A stretch of 64,000 bases of DNA, taken from Mya arenaria. Lineage: Eukaryota > Mollusca > Bivalvia > Myida > Myidae. Numbering within the stretch: position 1 is the first letter of the stretch; every line of letters begins with the position of its first letter. The stretch lies in the NCBI RefSeq assembly GCF_026914265.1, contig NC_069124.1:90610628-90674627 (forward strand). The letters run 5' to 3'. A model generated the notes under the pieces. It did not search any database. It saw only the letters and a list, made by a program, of their open reading frames with translations, and was not told the origin of the DNA. Below are positions 3,621-22,700 of this stretch, one piece after another. The translations under genes and the position numbers were made by a program.

Positions 3621-6600
3621 AGAGGCGTACGTTACCGGAAGTTGTATATGCTGCTCGAGCAGAACGTGATCTGCACCTTCGAGAGGACGCCGCCCGGTAA
3701 CCAGAATGTAAGCATAATTATATTCACATGAACAAGAGTGGGAACCCAGTTTCACCGTTTAAGCATGTGCTCGAATGGAAACACGTGTTAAGCTATTTGC
3801 TCTATTTAAGCATGCGCTCGAAAGGATACAAGTTGGTAACTAGTTGCTCTATTTAAGCATGTGCTCGAATGGTTACAAGTTGGTAACTAGGTACTCTATT
3901 TAAGCATGTTCTCGAATGAATACAAGTTGGTAACTAGTTGCTCTATTTAAGCATGTGCTCGAATGGTTACAAGTTGGTAACTAGGTACTCTATTTAAGCA
4001 TGTTCTCGAATGAATACAAGTTGGTAACTAGTTGCTCTGTTTAAGCATGTGCTCGAATGGTTACAAGTTGGTAACTAGGTACTCTATTTAAGCATGTTTT
4101 CGGGGTTCATGGACACGAGTAAGCAAATAGTTGACAATTTTATGCATGTGTTCGCGCGAAAATGAGTTGGCAAATTGTTGCTCAAGGTAGGCATGCGTTC
4201 GAGTGGAAACGAGTTTGCAACTAGTTGCATCTTGTACGTATTTGTGCACGTGGACACGAGTGGGTAACAAGTTGCGCCATGTATGAATATGTTCGCGTGG
4301 ACACGAGTGGGCAACTTGTTGCGCAATGTATGCATCTTTTATTTTGGGTGGACACGATTGGGCAATAAGAGGCTCCACGTAAGCTTGTGTTCGCATGGAG
4401 AAGAGTGAGCAAGAAGTTGCCTCATCTAAGCATATGCCCGCGTGGACATGACTGGGCAATTAGTAACTGCGCGTAAGCATGTGCCCGCGTGGAAATGACT
4501 GGACTGTTAGTAACTGCATGTAAGGATGTGCCCGCGTGGACACGACTGGGTAATTAGTAGCTCCATGTAAGAATATGCCCGCGTGGACATGACGGGACAA
4601 TTAGTAGATCCATGTCAGCATGTGTTCGATTGAACACGAGTTGGCAATATGTAGCTCCATGTTACAATGTGTTCGCGTCTACACGAGTGGAAAATTAGTT
4701 GCTCCATGTAAGAATGGATTCGCTTGTACACAACTGGGCAACAAGTTGCTTCATGTTAGCAAGTGTTTGCGAGGATACAACAGGGCAGCTAATAGATCCA
4801 TGACATAGCGAAAAGGCACTGATGTCTTTTGGAGGAATATTAGATGAATTAACATGACAAAGAAATATATAATCCAAACAAAACCATGTTTTATATGTAC
4901 TCTGCTTAAATATATATTGGAAATATATATATATATACTTGCGAGTGATGTGAAATGTGTAAAAGGCAAGTGTTTATAAATCTCTATAGTATATAACTAT
5001 ATATTGTTATTCAGCAACTTTGGAACTTGACGTTAGACAAAAGCACGACTTTCAAATACCGAGGTCCCACTAAGGATCACAGCGGCTACAAGTTCGATCT
5101 ATTCGCTGGCGGACGCAACAATACGTTTAAGGTCAGTGTGGATGTTCAGGGTCAGATAAACTGCATGCCGTTGACGCAATTTTTATTGGAATGGTAGTTT
5201 GTATAATAAGCCTGATATGAATAATGGAGAAGTGTGTGCATATAAAGGGCATTAGCAAATTGATATATAGTTTGTTAGGAATAAAATAATTGAATTCTTA
5301 ATATCTTATGACAAAGACTAAAACCAACTGTATGTCGTTTTTTTTTTCGATATTCATTTATCACTATTTTTCCAGACTGTCCGTCTGTCTGAGTTGGAGC
5401 AATGGCGTGGATACATCATTGGAATTGTAACGGTAGGTGTATAGATATTAAACTATAGGCACAGATACATTGAAAGCAATGTTACGGTATGTGTATAGAT
5501 GTTGAAACAATGGCGCAGATGCATTGAGGGCATTGTAACGGTAGGTGTATAGATGTTGAAACAATGGCGCGGATACATTAAGGCCATTGTAACAGTAGGT
5601 GTATTGATGTTGAAACAATGGCGCGGATACATTGAGGGCATTGTTACGGTAGATGTATAGATGTTGAAATAATGGCGCAGATGCATTGAGGGCATTGTAA
5701 CGGTAGGTGTATAGATGTTGAAATAATGGCGCAGATGCATTGAGGGCATTGTAACGGTAGGTGTATAGATGTTGAAATAATGGCGCAGATACATTGAGGG
5801 CATTGTTACGGTAGATGTATAGATGTTGAAATAATGGCGCAGATGCATTGAGGGCATTGTAACGGTAGGTGTATAGATGTTGAAACAATGGCTCGGATAC
5901 ATTGAGTGCATTGTAACAGTAGGTGTATAGATGTTGAAACAATGGCGCGGATACATTGAGAGAATTGTAACGGTAGATGTATAGATGTTGAAACAATGGC
6001 GCGGATACATTGAGGGCATTGTAACGGTAGGTGTATTGATGTTGAAACTATGACGCGGATACATTGAGGGCATTGTTACAGTAGGTATATAGATGTTGAG
6101 ACAATGACGCAGATACATTGAGGGCATTGTAACAGTAGGTGTATTGATGTTGAAACAGTGGCCTGGATACATTGAAAGCATTGTTACGTTATGTGTATAG
6201 ATGTTGAAACAATGGCCTGGATGCATTGAAATCATTGTTACGGAATGTGTATGGATGTTGAAACAATGGCGCGGATACATTGAGGGCATTGTTACAGTAG
6301 GTGTATAGATGTTGAAACAATGGCGCGGATACATTGAGGGCATTGTTACAGTAGGTGTATAGATGTTGAAACAATGGCCTGGATACATTGAGGGCAATGT
6401 AGCAGTAGGTGTATGGATGTTGAAACAATGGCGCGGATACATTGAGGGCATTGTAACGGTAGGTGTATAGATGGTGAAACAATGGCCTGGATACATTGGG
6501 GGCATTGTTACAGTAGGTGTATAGATGTTGAAACAATGGCGTGGATACATTGAGGGCATTGTTACAGTAGGTGTATAGATGTTGAAACAATGGCCTGGAT

Positions 6601-9600
6601 ACACTGAGGGTATTGTAACTGTAGGTGTATAGATGTTGAAACGATGGCGCGGATACATTGAGTGCATTGTAACGGTAGGTGTATAGATGTTGAAACGATG
6701 GTGCGGATACATTGAGGGCATTGTAACGGAAGGTGTATAGATGTTGAAACAATGGCGCGGATACATTGAGAGAATTGTAACGGTAGGTGTATAGATGTTG
6801 AAACGATGGCGCGGATACATTGAGAGAATTGTAACGGTAGGTGTATAGATGTTGAAACGATGGCGCGAAACATTGAGGGCATTGTAACGGTAGGTGTATA
6901 GATGTTGACACAATATATCATACAGGAAATACAAGATTGTTGATATTTTGTATGTAAATATGTTTTAATACAGCATTATTATAATTGTAATATAAAATAT
7001 ATACGTAGTAAATATATGCTCCAAGATAATCCAACTATTCGTATCTGTCGTGTCTCTCTGTAGCGAACTGTTCCTGTCGACCTGGATCTGCTAGAGGACC
7101 AGATTCGGCGGATCGTGGTAAACGTGCGCGGTTACAACAGTGAATCGGATAGCGGTTATATCCCCGACAGGCCTGGACCGGGTGGTGGGTCGACGCGCAC
7201 GGAAGTTTTCGCTCACAATCGCAGCATAGGGTCTGGTGATTCCGGCAAAGGGAACAGCCTGAAGCTGGACAACAACGGACAGGTGGTAGGTGACCGGTTC
7301 ATTAAAGAAGTTTGGGAAATTGATATAAGGCGTTCAGTGCGCGCGGTTTAGACCAATATTACATTAAACAAAACACACACACACACACGGAGACGAAATA
7401 TGCAAATACAAGTACATAGATGAAAGTACTCTACTCATTACTGACTATTACTGTCCTCTCGGTTTTAAGAATTGAATTGGAACCTTTTGTTAAACTAAGT
7501 TCTGATCATTTGAAGGATCATGTGTGAACGTTAATGGGTGTTTGGGTTTATTCAGAGTTGTGGGAGCATTGCATATAGATGAACGCATGATGTAGTCTTA
7601 TGTGACTACATAACTGTTCATAAAACTTTATGGCTTGTAAAATAAATCTGACTTAAAAAGTATGTAAGAAACTCTCTCTTTTCTTCTTTTTGGGGGGGGG
7701 GGGGGGGGGGGCTTTAGTAACTGGTTATAAGTATAGCTAACATATTCTGATTTGAGAAAACATCAGTGCACTTTTGAAGTGTGGCTTTAGTTGTGCTGGC
7801 GGCGATGAATCAAGTTTCAAGATATTATAAGGAAATGTAACTATACAATAGTAATTTCAGTTTGTTGTTAATTCGGATTCTTGACCAAAATGAAACGCTT
7901 CGTAAAGACACATTAACTACAGCAGGCTGTCGTATTATTGAGAGAGAAGCAGTTCTTGGTTAAATGAGATATTTCATTAATAACTATCAGGGGCGAATCC
8001 AGAATTTGATTTAAGCTAGAGGCGTAACCTTTGGACTTGCGCCCCTCCCTCCGAATTGAAATTTATTTGGTTTGAAGTGTTGGCAGGGGGTGTTTGAAGT
8101 GTTGGCAGGTGGTGTTAGGGTCACTTCCCTTTGAAAAGTTTCTAAACTTTCTATGGTGCATTTTAGGGCGTATTTGTTTACCTTTTTCTCCTATATTAAA
8201 ATAAAAAGTAAACTTAGACGAGTATGGGGTTTATTACACAGTCAAGATGTTTGACTTTGTGAACTTCTTTATAACGTTTATACTAAAGTATTCAGTATGG
8301 AACTGTTGACAATGATGATCTTTGCAGAACAATAATTCGAAAATTGCAGGTTCACAGGTTCCACGCAGACAAATTTGGGGAACAGACCCCGCCCAGGTTG
8401 GTTCTTTTCTTTAAGACATAAGTATAGCTTTCTTCTTACACTGTTTTTGCAATGTGAGTATTAAAATGTATATAAAACATAAGGCTAATATTGGTATGTT
8501 CGGTAAACTATGAACTGTATAACCGAGCGAATGTTTGAGTTGATGTTTACGCGGTGAAAGAACAAGGACGATATCGCTATGACTATTAAACAGCATTGTA
8601 TACTGTTATTTGAGTATATAAAAGAAGACACCAGGGGAAATGATATAAGCCTATTGGCCATCTATTGGATTAGAGCGACACAGCCTGATTTATTCTATAA
8701 CGAAATCCTATTCATAATACCTTGCAGCTGGTTTGTGACTCGCTGCTCAAGGGCAATGGCCGAGACAGTGTTGCGGGCGGCTGAGCGGCTCGGATACGGC
8801 AACACGCTGATGAGGGAGAGCACCACGCACATGAACAACGGAAGTTATGCCATCTCCAAACTCGTCAGGCACAAACGGTGCGTACTTCTCACCTTTCAGT
8901 CCCGATTGGCGTCCATGTACTTCCAGTTTCCAATGTATCTGACTGTATTCCTCGTGCCAAATGACACCCGTTATATTCTTTCAGAACTAACGATGTGCAG
9001 TTTGACCACTACGAAGTTATACGGGTTGCCGGCGGCTACAAACTTAACGTTGAAAATGAGGTATCAATACAGTTTTTTAAGTTTTGTTTAAATGTACAAT
9101 GACCTTATATTGTTGTGAGAAAAGGCATTCTCTGCCTGTTTGTTAGCAAGGTAGATTTAGTATTCAGATGGTTAAAAGGTCAAACGTTAACAAACACAAT
9201 TTACTTATTTTGTTTTAAATTCATTTAAATACAGTCATATTCGATTCATAAAGTAAAACAATGTCAACTAATAATACTCGCTTTGAGGCTGACAGAAACG
9301 TGTAGTGTAATAACAATCATGATTCAACATTCGATATCCTAGCACGAGCCGATGACGTGCCTGACAGAAGTGACGCACTACTTCCAACGCATGTTCGGGC
9401 TGGACACAGAGCTGCTCACGACAAATGACCGTCGGCAGCTGCAGGTGGAGGCCCAAGGGGAGCCCAGCTACGTCGACCGCTTCAGGCGTAAGTCAGTGTG
9501 AGGCGTTGAGTGATAGAAAGCTTGGAAATACATACCCTTTAATATTTAGGTAACAAAGATGTGTTGAACGGATGTTCAGTATAATCTGAGACACTAAGAA

Positions 9601-11038
9601 CCTTTCAGCAACTTGGACTTGGAATAGTTTACGTTTATCTCATGGTGTCGCGTTTTTTACATGGTGGCTGTTATTTATATTCCGAAACACTTGACTGTTT
9701 CACATTTAGCGGATTTAGCCACGTTATATTCCTATCACAATACTTGCAAAAATATGACATCTTTAATCACTTCTACTTGCAAATTTGTATCATTACAAAG
9801 ACACGCAATAAAACAGCTGGAATATATTGTGGAGAGTCTATGTTGGAAATGGTTTGGATAAGTCTTATTTTTTCAATATAACCACTTGCCTCCCTTTTCT
9901 CTTTCAGAGCACGATCATGGCGAACCCGAGCCAGGTATGTATTCACTACTGACCCCGCGCATGCCGTTGACGGTGTGTAGCCACTGTTTTCATACAGTTT
10001 ATTTGTACATGACAACCATTCTCCCGTTCCATACACATTATCTATAAAACTAAAGCTTTACATTTATATTATAATGTATACAACCATTCAGTTGTTAGTC
10101 GTTTTAGGCATAAGTCGTCTTTTTCAAATAAGTAGGCTGATGCATAAGCTCAATATTGAATAATGCTTTAAAAGAATTTACGTTTAAGAGTTTAACGGTG
10201 GTTAAAAAACGTTTGTGTAAAAACGATGACTTTAGCATCACTTTCACGGTAATTGTTGGTTTCGGATGGTTGTATACATAAGACACATGGGAAAAATATA
10301 TATGAGTTTACGTAATCAAATAACTGCCAAGGTTGAAAAGAGAGGAGAACATTCCAAACTAAATACAGAAGTTTGCATTGTTGTACTATGATTGAAACGC
10401 CTGCTGCTTTAGACGGCCGCTGGGTTCCCTCGCCGATGCCGCACATGCAACACTCCTTGTCGGCGCCTGGCTACGTGAACCAGGAGATAGAGCGAGAGGT
10501 GAAGGATGCGCAGACACTAACAGGTGACCGCTGCGTTCCCTCACCGATGCCGCACATGCAACACTCCTTGTCGGCGCCTGGGTACGTGAACCAGGAGAAT
10601 GAGCGGGAGGTGAAGGAGGCGCGGACACTCCCGGTCGCCCCTCCCCCGCCCCGCGACCCCATCGGTGAGATACTCGCAGTGAATTAGTACATAAATAACC
10701 ATGGCCACGCACTCAGTATGGGCCACATTTCGGGAAGTAGATTAACTTCATATAGAACACGAAGTTCAAAGTGTAGTTTGACACTCTCTCATAAATAATA
10801 ATAAATATGCAAAAATTATGTCTAGAGGTCATTGGCTGTCTAGCAATAACATTCAGATCTAAATACATGACACTAACCTCGCTTAAATTTACCCGCCAGT
10901 GAAGGGTCGACCGCCTGCATCGGCAGCACCGCATACACCAGCCTCCCCTCGGGACGACAAACGCTCCCAGCTAGAACAGAGCCTAGCTAATGTTACGCTC
11001 CGTAAAACTGGATTTAAACCCACTTTGTCAGCAAGCCC

Positions 11039-11077
<39 letters not shown>

Positions 11078-16748: not shown

Positions 16749-19700
16749 GTTCACCGCTTCAACGCAGACGATTTCGGGGACCAGACCCCGCCCAGGTTGG
16801 TTCTATTCTACTAGTACACACCATTATGGCTTTCTTTTGACACCGAACTATGCAGAATAAAAATGATATATATACTTATACAGGTATGCTATTTGTGGTG
16901 AACTATGAACTCGAAGATATTATCTAGCGAATATTTGAGTTAATGTTTTAATATGTTAGGGGTAAGACACCAGATTATTCAGATGCAAGAAAACAAGAGA
17001 ATTGTCAAAAACTTACAAAAAATGACATCGTTGTGCACAACACGTTGAATCTTACTTATTGATGTATCACATCGCTCACGACCCATTTTTTGCAGTTTTT
17101 GCGCAATTCTCCAATTCGAAATTTACTAGGGTTGGCTTTCACGTAAATCCCAGTAAGTTTTAAAAAAGATCGTCAGTTTACTTATTTGTATATATATGGT
17201 TTAAATGATGGGGAACCATTGTGCGCTATTTTTAACATGGTAACACAGGTGAGACAGCAACATGATTGTTGCGTTTATTATTTGAAAGTAAAGTGATGTT
17301 TTATCGGCCTCCTACTAGCTCGCATTGAAAATTTTATGCAAATACATGTACTTCATTTGCCGATTGATTTTTGGACCATCTGGTGTCTAGCCCCTTTAAC
17401 GCGTAGAAGGAACAGAGACGATATCGTTATGTTGTTTACTAGTATTTGAGCATATAAAAGCAGACACTAGAGTGAATGATATAACGCACATTGGCCATCT
17501 ATTGGACTAGAGCGACACATCCTGATTTACTATATCACAAAACCCTTTTGATGTTGCAGTTGGTTTATAACTCGCTGCTCGCGGGCGATGGCCGAGACAG
17601 TGCTGCGGGCGGCTGAGCGGCTCGGATACGGCAACACGCTGATGAGGGAGAGCACCACGCACATGAGCAATGGAAGTTACGTCATCTCTAAACTCGTCAG
17701 GGAGCAGTACGTACTACCCATCTTTTAGTTCCGATTGGCGAGGTTGTACGTCCATTTTCCACTTAATTTTGAACCAGTATACCCGTTTACATCGTGTTAT
17801 TTTTCTATGTTCATGGGGGAATCTATATATTCTCGACCACACAGTTTATGGAGGAATCTATCTATTCTCGACCATACAGTTCATGGAGGAATCTATCTAT
17901 TCTCGACCACCCAGTTCATAGAGGAATCTATCTATCCTCGACCACACAGTTCATGGAGGAATCTATCTATCCTCGACCACACAGTTCATGGAAGAATCTA
18001 TCTATCCTCGACCACACAGTTCATGGGGGAATCTATCTATTTTCGACCACACAGTTCATGGAGGAATCTATCTATCATCGACCACACAGTTCATGGAGGA
18101 ATCTATCTATCCTCGACCACACAGATCATGGTGGAATCTATCTATCCTCGACCACTCAGTTCATGGGTGAATCTATCAATCATCGACCACACAGTTCATG
18201 GGGGAATCTATATATCCTCGACCACACAGTTCATGGAGGAATCTATCTATCCTCGACCACACAGTTCATGGGGTAATCTATCTATCATCGACCACACAGT
18301 TCATGGAGGAATCTATCTATCCTCGACCACCCAGTTCATGGGGGAATCTATCTATCCTCGACCACACAGTTCATGGGGGAATCTATCTATTCTCGACCAC
18401 ACAGTTCATGGAGGAATCTATCTATCATCGACCACACAGTTCATGGAGGAATCTATCTATCCTCGACCACACAGATCATGGGGGAATCTATCAATTCTCG
18501 ACCACTCAGTTCATGGGTGAATCTATCTATCATCGACCACACAGTTCATGGGGGAATCTATATATCCTCGACCACGCAGTTCATGGAGGAATCTATCTAT
18601 CCTCGACTACACAGTTCATGGGGTAATCTATCTATCATCGACCACACAGTTCATGGAGGAATCTATCTATCCTCGACCACCCAGTTCATGGGGGAATCTA
18701 TCTATCCTCGACCACAAAGTTCATGTGTGAATCCATCTATTCTCGACCACACAGTTCATGTGGGAATCTATCTTTCCTCGACCACACAGTTTATGGGGAA
18801 ATCTATCGATCCTCGACCAAACAGTTCATGGAGGAATCTATCTATCCTCGACCACACAGTTCATGTAGGAATCTATATATTCTCGACCACACAGTTCATG
18901 GGGGAATCTATCTATCATCGGTCACACAGTTCATGGGGTAATCTATTTATTCTCGACCACAAAGTTCATGGGGGAATCTATCTATCATCGATCACCCAGT
19001 TCATGGGGGAATCTATCTATCCTCGACCACCCAGTTCATGGGGTAATCTATTTATTCTCGACCACCCACCCAGTTCATGGGGTAATCTATCTATTCTCGA
19101 CCACTCAGTTCATGGGGTAATCTATCTGTCCTCGACCACTCAGTTCATGTGGTAATCTATCTATCCTCGACCACAAAGTTCATGGAGGAATCTATCTATT
19201 CTCGACCACAAAGTTCATGGGGTAATCTATCTATCATCGACCACACAGTTCATGGAGGAATCTATCTATTATCGACCACTCAGTTCGTGGAGGAATCTAT
19301 TTATCCTCGACCACTCAGTTCATGGAGGAATCTATCTATTCTCGACCACACAGTTCATGGGGGAATCTATCTATTCTCGGCCACTCAGTTCATGGGGGAA
19401 TCTATCTATCCTCGACCACCCAGTTCATGGAGGAATCTATCTATCATCGACCACACTGTTCATGGGGTAATCTATCTATCATCGACCACACAGTTCATGG
19501 GGGAATCTATCTATCCTCGACCACACAGTTCATGGGGGAATCTATCTATTCTCGACCACAAAGTTCATGGGGTAATCTATCTATCATCGACCACACAGTT
19601 CATGGGGGAATCTATCTATCATCGACCACCCAGTTCATGGGGGGAATCTATCTATCCTCGACCACACAGTTCATGGGGGAATCTATCTACTCTCGACCAC

Positions 19701-22700
19701 ACAGTTCATGGGGGAATCTATCTATTCTCGACCACACAGTTCATGGGGTAATCTATCAATCATCGACCACACAGTTCATGGGGGAATCTATCTATTCTCG
19801 ACCACAAAGTTCATGGGGTAATCTATCTATCATCGACCACTCAGTTCATGGGGGAATCTATCTATTCTCGACCACAAAGTTCATGGGGTAATCTATCTAT
19901 CATCGACCACCCAGTTCATGGGGAATCTATCTATTCTCGACCACACAGTTCATGGGGGAATCTATCTATTCTCGATCACACAGTTCATGGGGTAATCTAT
20001 CTATTCTCGACCACAAAGTTCATGGGGTAATCTATCTATCATCGACCACCCAGTTCATGGGGGAATCTATCTATTCTCGACCACAAAGTTCATTGGGTAA
20101 TCTATCTATCATCGACCACACAGTTCATGGGGTAATCTATCTATCATCGACCACCCAGTTCATGGGGGAATCTATCTATTCTCGACCACAAAGTTCATGG
20201 GGTAGTCTATCTATCATCGACCACCCAGTTCATGGGGAAATCTATCTATTCTCGACCACAAAGTTCATGGGGGGGAATCTATCTATCATTGACCACACGG
20301 TTCATGGGGGAATCTATCTATCCTCGACCCCATGGTAATATCATATCTGACTGTATTCCTCGTGTCGAATGACTTCCGCTATGTGCTTTTAGAACTGATG
20401 TGCAGTTTGACCACTACGAAGTGATCCGGGTGGCTGGTGGCTACAAAATAAAAGTTGAAAATGAGGTATAACTACATTGTAGAATTACCTTATATAGTTA
20501 TGAGAAGAAGCATTCTCTGCCTGTTTTAGCGGGTCATTTAAATACAGATTAAGTATGAAGATGGTTAAAAGGTCAAACGTTTACATATACAGTTTACTAT
20601 TAAGTACACAGACTTTCAATTATTGTTTAACAGTTAAATGCGAAGAAACTCGTGTATGTCGACGGCTTTTGAAAAACGGTATCTCCAAGTCTGAAACGAT
20701 TTTTTTCCGGGAATAAAATGTGTACACTTTTTTAACTTCAATTCATTTGAATACAGTCATATTCGATTCAGTAAATACAACGTCAACTAATAATACTCAC
20801 TTTGAGGCTGAAAGAAACGTATATTGTAATAACAATTATGATTCAACGTTCGGTATTATAGCACGAGCCTATGACGTGTCTGACAGAAGTGATGCACTAC
20901 TTCCAACGCAAGTGCGGGCTGGACACGGAGCTGCTCACGACAAATGACCGTCGGCAGCTGCAGGTGGAGGCCCAAGGCGAGCCTAGCTTCGTCGACCGCT
21001 TCACGCGTAAGTCGTTGAGATATAAAATGCTGAGGTAACAAAGATTTGTTAAACTGATATTCAGTATAAATGTCGCGTTTAGTGGGAATCTTTTCAATTA
21101 CACAGTTGTCTGTGTCGCGTTTAGTGGGTTTGTTTTCTATTACACAGTTGTCTGTGTCGCGTTTAGTGGGTTTGTTTTCAATTACACAGTTGTCTGTGTC
21201 GCGTTTAGTGGGTTTCTTTTCTATTTCACTGTTGTCTGTGTCGCGTTTAGTTGATTAATTTATAATAACACAGTTGCCTGTGTGGCGTTTAGTGGATTTG
21301 TTTTCAATTACACAGTAGTCTGTGTCGCGTTTAGTTGATTAATTTTCAATTACACAGTTGTCTATGTCACGTTTAGTGGGTTTCTTTTCTATTACACAGT
21401 TTTCTGTGTCGCGTTAAGTGGGTTTGTTTTCAATAACACAGTTGCCTGTGTCGCGTTAAGTGGGTTTCTTTTGTATTGCACAGTTGTCTGTGTCGCGTTT
21501 AGTGGATTTGTTTTCAATAACACAGTTGTCTGTGTCGCGTTTAGTGGGTTTCTTTTCTATTATACAGTTGTCTGTGTCGCGTTAAGTTGATTTGTTTTCA
21601 ATAACAAAGTTGTCTGTATCGCGTTAAGTGGGTTTGTTTATAATAACACAGTTGTCTGTGTGGCGTTAAGTGGGTTTCTTTTCTATTACACAGTTGTCTG
21701 TGTCGCGTTTAGTGGATTTGTTTTCAATAAAACAGTTGTCTGTGTCGCGTTTAGTGGGTTTCTTTTCTATTACACAGTTGTCTGTGTCGCGTTTAGTGGA
21801 TTTGTTTTCAATAACACAGTTGTCTGTGTCGCGTTTAGTGGGTTTCTTTTCTATTACACAGTTGTCTGTGTCGCGTTTAGTGGATTTGTTTTCAATAACA
21901 CAGTTGTCTGTGTCGTGTTTAGTGGGTTTGTTTTCAATTACACAAGTTGTCTGTGTCGCGATTAATGGATTTGTTTTCAACGACAGAGTTGTCTGTGTCG
22001 GGTTTAGGAGTTTTGTTTTCAATAACACAGTTGTCTGTGTCACGTTAAGGAGATTTGTTTTTAAGTACACACCGGAAGATATTGTGGAAATTCTATGTTG
22101 GAAATTGTTTGTTCAAGTCTTAATTTTCTTTATATAACCACATGCCTCCCTTCTTTTCTTTCAGCGCAAGAACCCGAGCCAGGTATGTGTTCACTTTTGA
22201 ACCCGTGGACAGTGTGTTGTTGCTGCATATATACAGTTTATTTTCACGCCTTAACCCTTCTCCCGTGCCACAAACATCATCTAAAAAGCTTTGCATACAT
22301 TCTAAAGTAGCCAACCATTTTACAGTAGTCGTCTAGTCGAAAAAGTAAATTGTTTTCTAAGCTTGATAATGCTTAAATTGAATTTCAGATTAAGTTTACA
22401 TACATGCAGGTACAGGAGCACGTGTCATTTAATCCCGAGAAACTTTTTAATGAAATAATGTATTTCTCAATGGCTACATGTCTGACCAGGCGCAACCGTT
22501 TACACGTGTCCTGCTGTCATGGCAGCACTTGTTACTGATTTGTTTATCCCATAGATTGCATTTCGGCTACTTTTGTACAGTACATGTATGCCTTATTGTA
22601 GTGGAAAGACTTTGTTATTTCAATGTTTCCCCAACGAAACCCGGTATGACTTTCACAATATGTATCCTGCTTTTTTAAATTAAACAGTTCTGTTGGCATG

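Follow-up and report, generated by a model that had tools for sequence, protein, structure and literature searches.

Tandem arrays multiplying a 5′ splice site in a STAP-like gene pair and at other exon ends of Mya arenaria

In a 64,000-nt window of the Mya arenaria genome (C3:90610628-90674627; the window is this whole stretch, with positions counted from its first base), a short coding exon of what its sequence suggests is a STAP-like adaptor gene with PH and SH2 domains runs directly into a 54-bp minisatellite, the units of which repeat the exon end together with its 5′ splice site (donor). The gene has a tandem paralog with the same array, and arrays of other unit sequences span the donors of exons in other genes; donor arrays are a recurrent product of tandem duplication in this genome and not a device of one gene. 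We think it probable that such arrays begin with the tandem duplication of an exon end and its donor, that they then expand, and that this growth is nearly neutral, with the first donor remaining the one in use.

The donor array in two paralogs

The array follows a 57-bp exon (5376-5432, forward strand; TVRLSELEQWRGYIIGIVT) encoding the end of the PH helix, with its donor GT at 5433. The last 39 bp of this exon and the first 15 bp of the intron form a leading unit, unit 0 (5394-5447), which itself overlaps the exon-intron boundary and contains an in-frame TAG at 5442-5444; behind it, on the same strand, lie 27 units of 54 bp (5448-6905; the last has 53 bp), as delimited by Tandem Repeats Finder (TRF) and by unit-by-unit reading in the exon register. 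Read in this way, each unit has 39 bp resembling the exon end and 15 bp resembling the intron start. An earlier note on this DNA had located the array here, in phase with the exon end and intron start, and this is borne out: unit 0 agrees with the consensus of the array at 31 of its 39 exon bases and 14 of its 15 intron bases. The same note saw exon-like codons in most units. Aligned to the array, the exon alone, stripped of any intron bases, scored 41; 1000 dinucleotide shuffles averaged 16.3 and reached 34 at most, and because the score exceeds all of these shuffles, the match is not confined to the donor.

The repeated donors, referred to here as decoys, are less uniform than had been claimed. 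The array does place 27 units after the exon, 24 of which have GT at the donor position, but the exact 9-mer of the real donor (ACG/GTAGGT, the slash marking the splice site) is found in only 10/27. Predicted pairing with U1 is -8.5 kcal/mol for this exact 9-mer and -4.6 to -5.2 kcal/mol for the other 14 units with GT. Likewise, the TAG said to stand behind every donor is replaced by TTG or TGG in five of the 27 units; decoy use would nevertheless stop at 5442-5444, since this first TAG lies directly behind the real donor and any decoy product would end in GIVTVGV followed by the stop.

A tandem copy of the gene just described (copy A) lies 34.8 kb upstream of it; this paralog B carries the same array with a different number of units after the exon (26, versus 27 in A). 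GT is present in 25/26 of these and the identical donor 9-mer in 18/26. The exon end of B (WRGYIEGIVT) matches the consensus at 36/39 exon and 15/15 intron bases, and its first array unit is identical to the consensus. Over 171 aligned codons, A and B differ by 0.46 synonymous substitutions per site (dS), with a nonsynonymous to synonymous ratio (dN/dS) of 0.23; both gene copies are thus under purifying selection, and their split is old. A search of the whole genome (18 contigs, 1.216 Gb) matched the 54-bp unit in these two paralogs only, although the lack of other matches is no proof that the unit is rare.

Donor arrays at other exon ends

We surveyed 90 regions, comprising the 30 best SH2 matches, then kinase, SH2, PH, and ABC exons, plus one extension. 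The later exons were picked from match lists for a short open frame and an unlike position, and repeats played no role in the choice except for the one extension. After duplicates and the extension were dropped, 80 exon loci remained, some of them sharing a gene, which were read by eye and by script. In six of these loci, the first unit of an array spans the exon end and the donor. Two involve exons that look kinase-like by eye: L023 (exon end FLQEASLMT, 51-bp unit, 8 decoys) and L058 with L072 (CRSPFITR, 44 bp, 12 decoys). Two are SH2 exons, L030 (FTLSVR, 84 bp, 18 decoys) and L051 (FAVSVR, 38 bp, 11 decoys), and two are PH exons, L100 (ELYYYKSQ, 24/41 bp, 14 decoys) and L108 (LDRLRG, 24 bp; C15:47791753, minus strand, oriented positions 761-880), where all 4 decoys are identical. 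A further locus, L091, is a probable donor array, with a score of 43 against a maximum of 36 in 500 mononucleotide shuffles, its exon part alone not being significant. Together with the in-phase exon match, which is stronger in paralog B, and a unit that went unmatched elsewhere in the genome, these six like arrays with unlike units uphold the proposal that the 54-bp array originated from an exon-intron junction.

Four of the six arrays lie at the targeted exon's own donor, corresponding to 4/67 scored donors; L023 and L058 involve neighbouring exons and stand outside this count and the test of array starts given below. For L051, L100, and L108, the script had picked a decoy as the best donor, and the first donor, also within the array, was found by eye. 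The donor falls inside an array in 4/67 targeted exons with a scored donor; positions 150 to 300 bases downstream in the intron do so in 7/67, and avoidance of donors by arrays is thus not clear. Only one of 77 acceptors is spanned by an array (L039; C15:37728364, minus strand, oriented positions 1100-1468), where three copies of a 127-bp unit each carry the acceptor TTTAG/GTACACCAAAAGGCCACC; the idea that this acceptor had been miscalled was dropped, as reading shows a true acceptor-spanning array. The difference between donors and acceptors (4/67 versus 1/77) is not significant (Fisher P 0.18). Among 24 further short loci, repeats span the stop codon of two mitochondrial-carrier genes, L120 (four copies of 37 bp) and L135 (two copies of 119 bp). 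Other arrays found in the survey do not include a donor: L052 (which starts at +20), L027, L033, L053, L061, L064, L066, L071, L084, L090, L093, the first array of L100, and L102. The intron arrays of L071 and L064 (34 and 32 bp, respectively) reach or come near an acceptor, and their units have no good AG by eye.

Probable near-neutral growth and its alternatives

The scheme that we favour would begin with a tandem duplication of a short stretch covering the last part of a coding exon together with its 5′ splice site, and expansion would follow by unequal exchange or slippage. The 5′-most copy would remain exon and donor, with selection holding its coding part, while all further copies would sit in the intron, behind a working boundary, and drift. 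If the spliceosome uses the first donor in almost all transcripts, as we infer, or if translation meets the first stop, growth would be nearly invisible to selection and the array close to neutral. Elsewhere in this genome, other exon ends and some stop codons would have been subject to the same process; donor and stop arrays fit the scheme, and the acceptor case would require a working last copy. Near-neutrality is suggested by the lack of excess decoy conservation, by the TAG at 5442 that would end any decoy product, and by purifying selection on both gene copies. Comparing the donor 9-mer with the other 9-mers of the unit, we saw no clear excess conservation, with 7/54 windows in A and 38/54 in B kept as poorly or worse. 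In the exon of L030, FLA is followed by the codon CGG (Arg), which we take to be the phosphotyrosine-binding position of SH2, whereas of six units read at this position, four have CAA (Gln) and two CGA (Arg), a pattern indicating that exon copies are constrained while units decay.

Several observations weigh against near-neutral growth from exon ends with the first donor in use. The donor window of paralog B is kept better than most windows of its unit, and decoys with predicted U1 pairing at least equal to that of the real donor are common in both copies (10/27 in A, 19/26 in B), as is retention of GT (24/27 and 25/26, respectively). Moreover, splicing of an exon as short as 57 nt might prefer a decoy lying one or two units further on. 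The tendency of arrays to start at the donor, which itself favours the scheme (observed in 4/11 arrays that begin within the 600 bases following a targeted exon, against an expectation of 0.8; P 0.005), derives from 11 arrays listed by hand and a 600-bp null of our own choosing; without L030, which the search possibly favoured, its array repeating a domain piece, the figures are 3/10 and P 0.024. Finally, the 24 further short loci (21 carrier and 3 kinase matches, several of them last exons with no donor) yielded no donor arrays.

The best placed of the alternatives, though we consider it unlikely, is that the decoys are regulatory, splicing within the array giving either a PH-only protein ending in GIVTVGV or mRNA decay and thereby tuning the amount of full-length adaptor. 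The frequent equality of decoys with the real donor, the single end that the TAG at 5442 would give to all decoy products, the presence of the array in both paralogs, and a donor window in B kept as well as or better than 38/54 windows all speak for this reading. In A, on the other hand, the donor window ranks with those that are poorly kept, and like arrays stand at exons of unlike genes. Truncation behind the donor is also no common feature of these arrays: the STAP pair and L023 meet a stop within a few codons, but the frame stays open for 40 codons in L100 and for 43 in L108, where decoy use would add GKNNFIRG repeats with no immediate truncation. An mRNA truncated with several exons after the stop is, furthermore, expected to decay. 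The suggestion in the earlier note that decoys might set the ratio of PH-only to full-length product finds no support here, as donor 9-mers are not better kept and both paralogs are under purifying selection.

A still less probable role for the arrays is as platforms on which many U1 particles bind tandem donors that are not spliced, so that a very short exon is defined more strongly or premature polyadenylation in the intron is prevented. Tandem donors do occur in seven genes (counting the STAP pair as one), six of which have four or more decoys that equal the real donor in strength. Against such a platform, the donor motif is not clearly conserved above the remainder of the unit, and the real donor's strength is reached by just 1/11 decoys in L051 and by none in the probable case L091.

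How the arrays of A and B relate to each other bears on a third alternative. Their 54-bp consensus units are identical, and the mean distance between a unit of A and one of B is 6.1 of 54 positions, which does not exceed the 6.6 found among the units of A (among those of B it is 4.1). In a tree of the units, those of A and B are intermixed with poor support; the earlier note had looked for a root at the exon, and the tree, although built, gave none, placing exon A on a long outlying branch and exon B among the units. The arrays are thus not differentiated between the paralogs. Exchange between the A and B arrays, or a later transfer, would be the simple reading, because separate drift at a dS of 0.46 could hardly have left 54 identical bases. 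At one position of the exon, A has Ile and human STAP1 has Leu, whereas B shares Glu with the array, a pattern suggestive of array sequence having overwritten the exon end of paralog B. Units seem to have passed between the tandem paralogs, and array and exon end differ little in B.

This same pattern, together with the 36/39 consensus bases of exon B and the consensus-identical first unit behind it, also fits the idea that the array came first, a pre-existing intron minisatellite having spread over the exon end, which would then be array-derived. Such spreading is quite possible as a local overwriting of exon B; that the exon itself originated in this way is unlikely, and marginally more so than the U1 platform: exon A and human STAP1 have the core WRG[YF]I in common, so the exon need not derive from the array, and the unit was unmatched elsewhere in the genome search. 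An assembly artefact or chance resemblance is highly improbable, since even if the assembly seems to hold duplicated haplotype pieces (scores and positions reveal many equal-score match pairs roughly 0.5-2 Mb apart, as if duplicated haplotypes sat in its scaffolds), A and B have diverged to a dS of 0.46, the arrays have different units, and the exon match stands above all 1000 shuffles.

Known systems and the surroundings of the array

New introns have reportedly been made from tandem arrays, whereas in the clam the donor and its intron were already there and the array adds length to that intron behind the donor. In this respect, our case departs from the human introns from tandem arrays of Zhuo and others (2007); the common point, judging by the title of that work, is that arrays serve as a source of splice sites. 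Closer in anatomy are the internal tandem repeats that De Grassi and Ciccarelli (2009; PMC2812944) described at exon-intron boundaries in human genes of segmental duplications. In these recently duplicated human paralogs, as in the clam pair, minisatellites cross the boundary and vary in unit number from copy to copy, and the human repeats can alter splicing through novel introns, with RNA support for 27 intron modifications. The human case concerns variation among nearly identical paralogs; in the clam, an exon survey brought the arrays to light at kinase, SH2, PH, and STAP-like exons, it is the donor itself that is repeated by the unit, and the arrays are known here from DNA alone. The potato RdRp gene (PMC4974935) is reported to have gained an intron by a tandem genomic duplication that likewise included splice-site sequence. 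The 54-bp unit differs in that, by eye, it supplies no good acceptor to pair with its donor (TATAG, with no pyrimidine tract and no pyrimidine-rich AG), and no intron was created. At L023, where the exon piece is preceded by CTCTTACAG, a new intron may have formed by duplication.

Boundary-crossing repeats are thus already known from human duplicated genes; the recurrence of donor-multiplying arrays in an animal genome seems to be new, in that we found no report of such arrays, in a clam or as recurrent in any animal genome, in the open-licence literature searched. More tentative, and to our minds somewhat doubtful, is the broader claim that internal exons ending in a minisatellite which multiplies their own 5′ splice site make up a few percent of those in this genome, and that spliceosomes facing 4 to 27 near-identical donors still use the first. 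To our knowledge, most work on the choice among equal 5′ splice sites has used a few engineered duplicates; a natural test is offered here by seven genes in which units of 24 to 84 bp present 4 to 27 decoy donors in tandem. If the claim is true, nature has set up an experiment on donor choice across this whole genome, and the arrays are a route to longer introns and to exon ends recast by the repeats that grew from them, of which paralog B may be an example. The arrays also illustrate one way in which introns grow, and how a non-coding repeat may bring about changes in the coding exon next to it.

A second array in the same gene may have a comparable relation to an intron start. This 47-bp minisatellite (3758-4767, forward strand; TRF) lies in the intron after 3707, and its unit, cut at GTAAGC, has an ungapped match to the first 47 intron bases of paralog B, beginning at the base before GT. 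The intron start of B agrees with the B unit at 30/47 positions ungapped (maximum 29 in 2000 shuffles), but its gapped score of 26 is within the shuffle range (maximum 28 in 1000). Against the A unit, it scores 38, with a maximum of 23 in 1000 shuffles. The intron start of A itself was rejected as a copy of the unit, its nhmmer expectation value (E) of 0.058 not being significant alone; its gapped scores were 21 and 20 (shuffle maxima 25 and 31), and its local score of 24 was reached in 8/1000 shuffles. On the exon side of this junction, no match to the unit was found.

Other exons recognised in the gene lie on the forward strand as well. A PH-domain exon at 3621-3707 (RGVRYRKLYMLLEQNVICTFERTPPGNQN), ending at the donor GTAAGC at 3708, aligns with paralog B and has an open frame with a dN/dS of 0.24. 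A second PH-domain exon, at 5015-5131 (QLWNLTLDKSTTFKYRGPTKDHSGYKFDLFAGGRNNTFK), has an open frame conserved in paralog B, and two places in the genome match it. The 57-bp exon aligns with EEWRGFILTVTELSVP of human STAP1 (1x1f), which, with the joined exons as query, is the best PDB match of the gene, weak at E 0.033; a Pfam search gave no match for the PH piece. An exon beginning with RTVPVDLDLLEDQIRR follows at 7064-7285 (acceptor AG at 7062-7063), its start kept in paralog B and its frame carrying on from 5432. The SH2 exon at 8729-8877 is conserved in paralog B (dN/dS 0.31), and its Pfam SH2 match (E 0.0071) falls below the curated cut-off.

Further along the window, a third paralog at 17600-22200 has an SH2 exon (VLRAAERLGYGNTLMRESTTHMSNGSYVISKLVREQ) and two more intron arrays (35 bp × 72 and 42 bp × 24), which start at about +105 and +55, respectively, and by eye do not include the donors. 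A 111-bp (37-codon) tandem duplication of 1.9 copies lies within the open reading frame PSPMPHMQHSLSAPGYVNQE at 10417-10629, and an (ACA)13 run at 11039-11077 reads as a run of Gln in an open frame.

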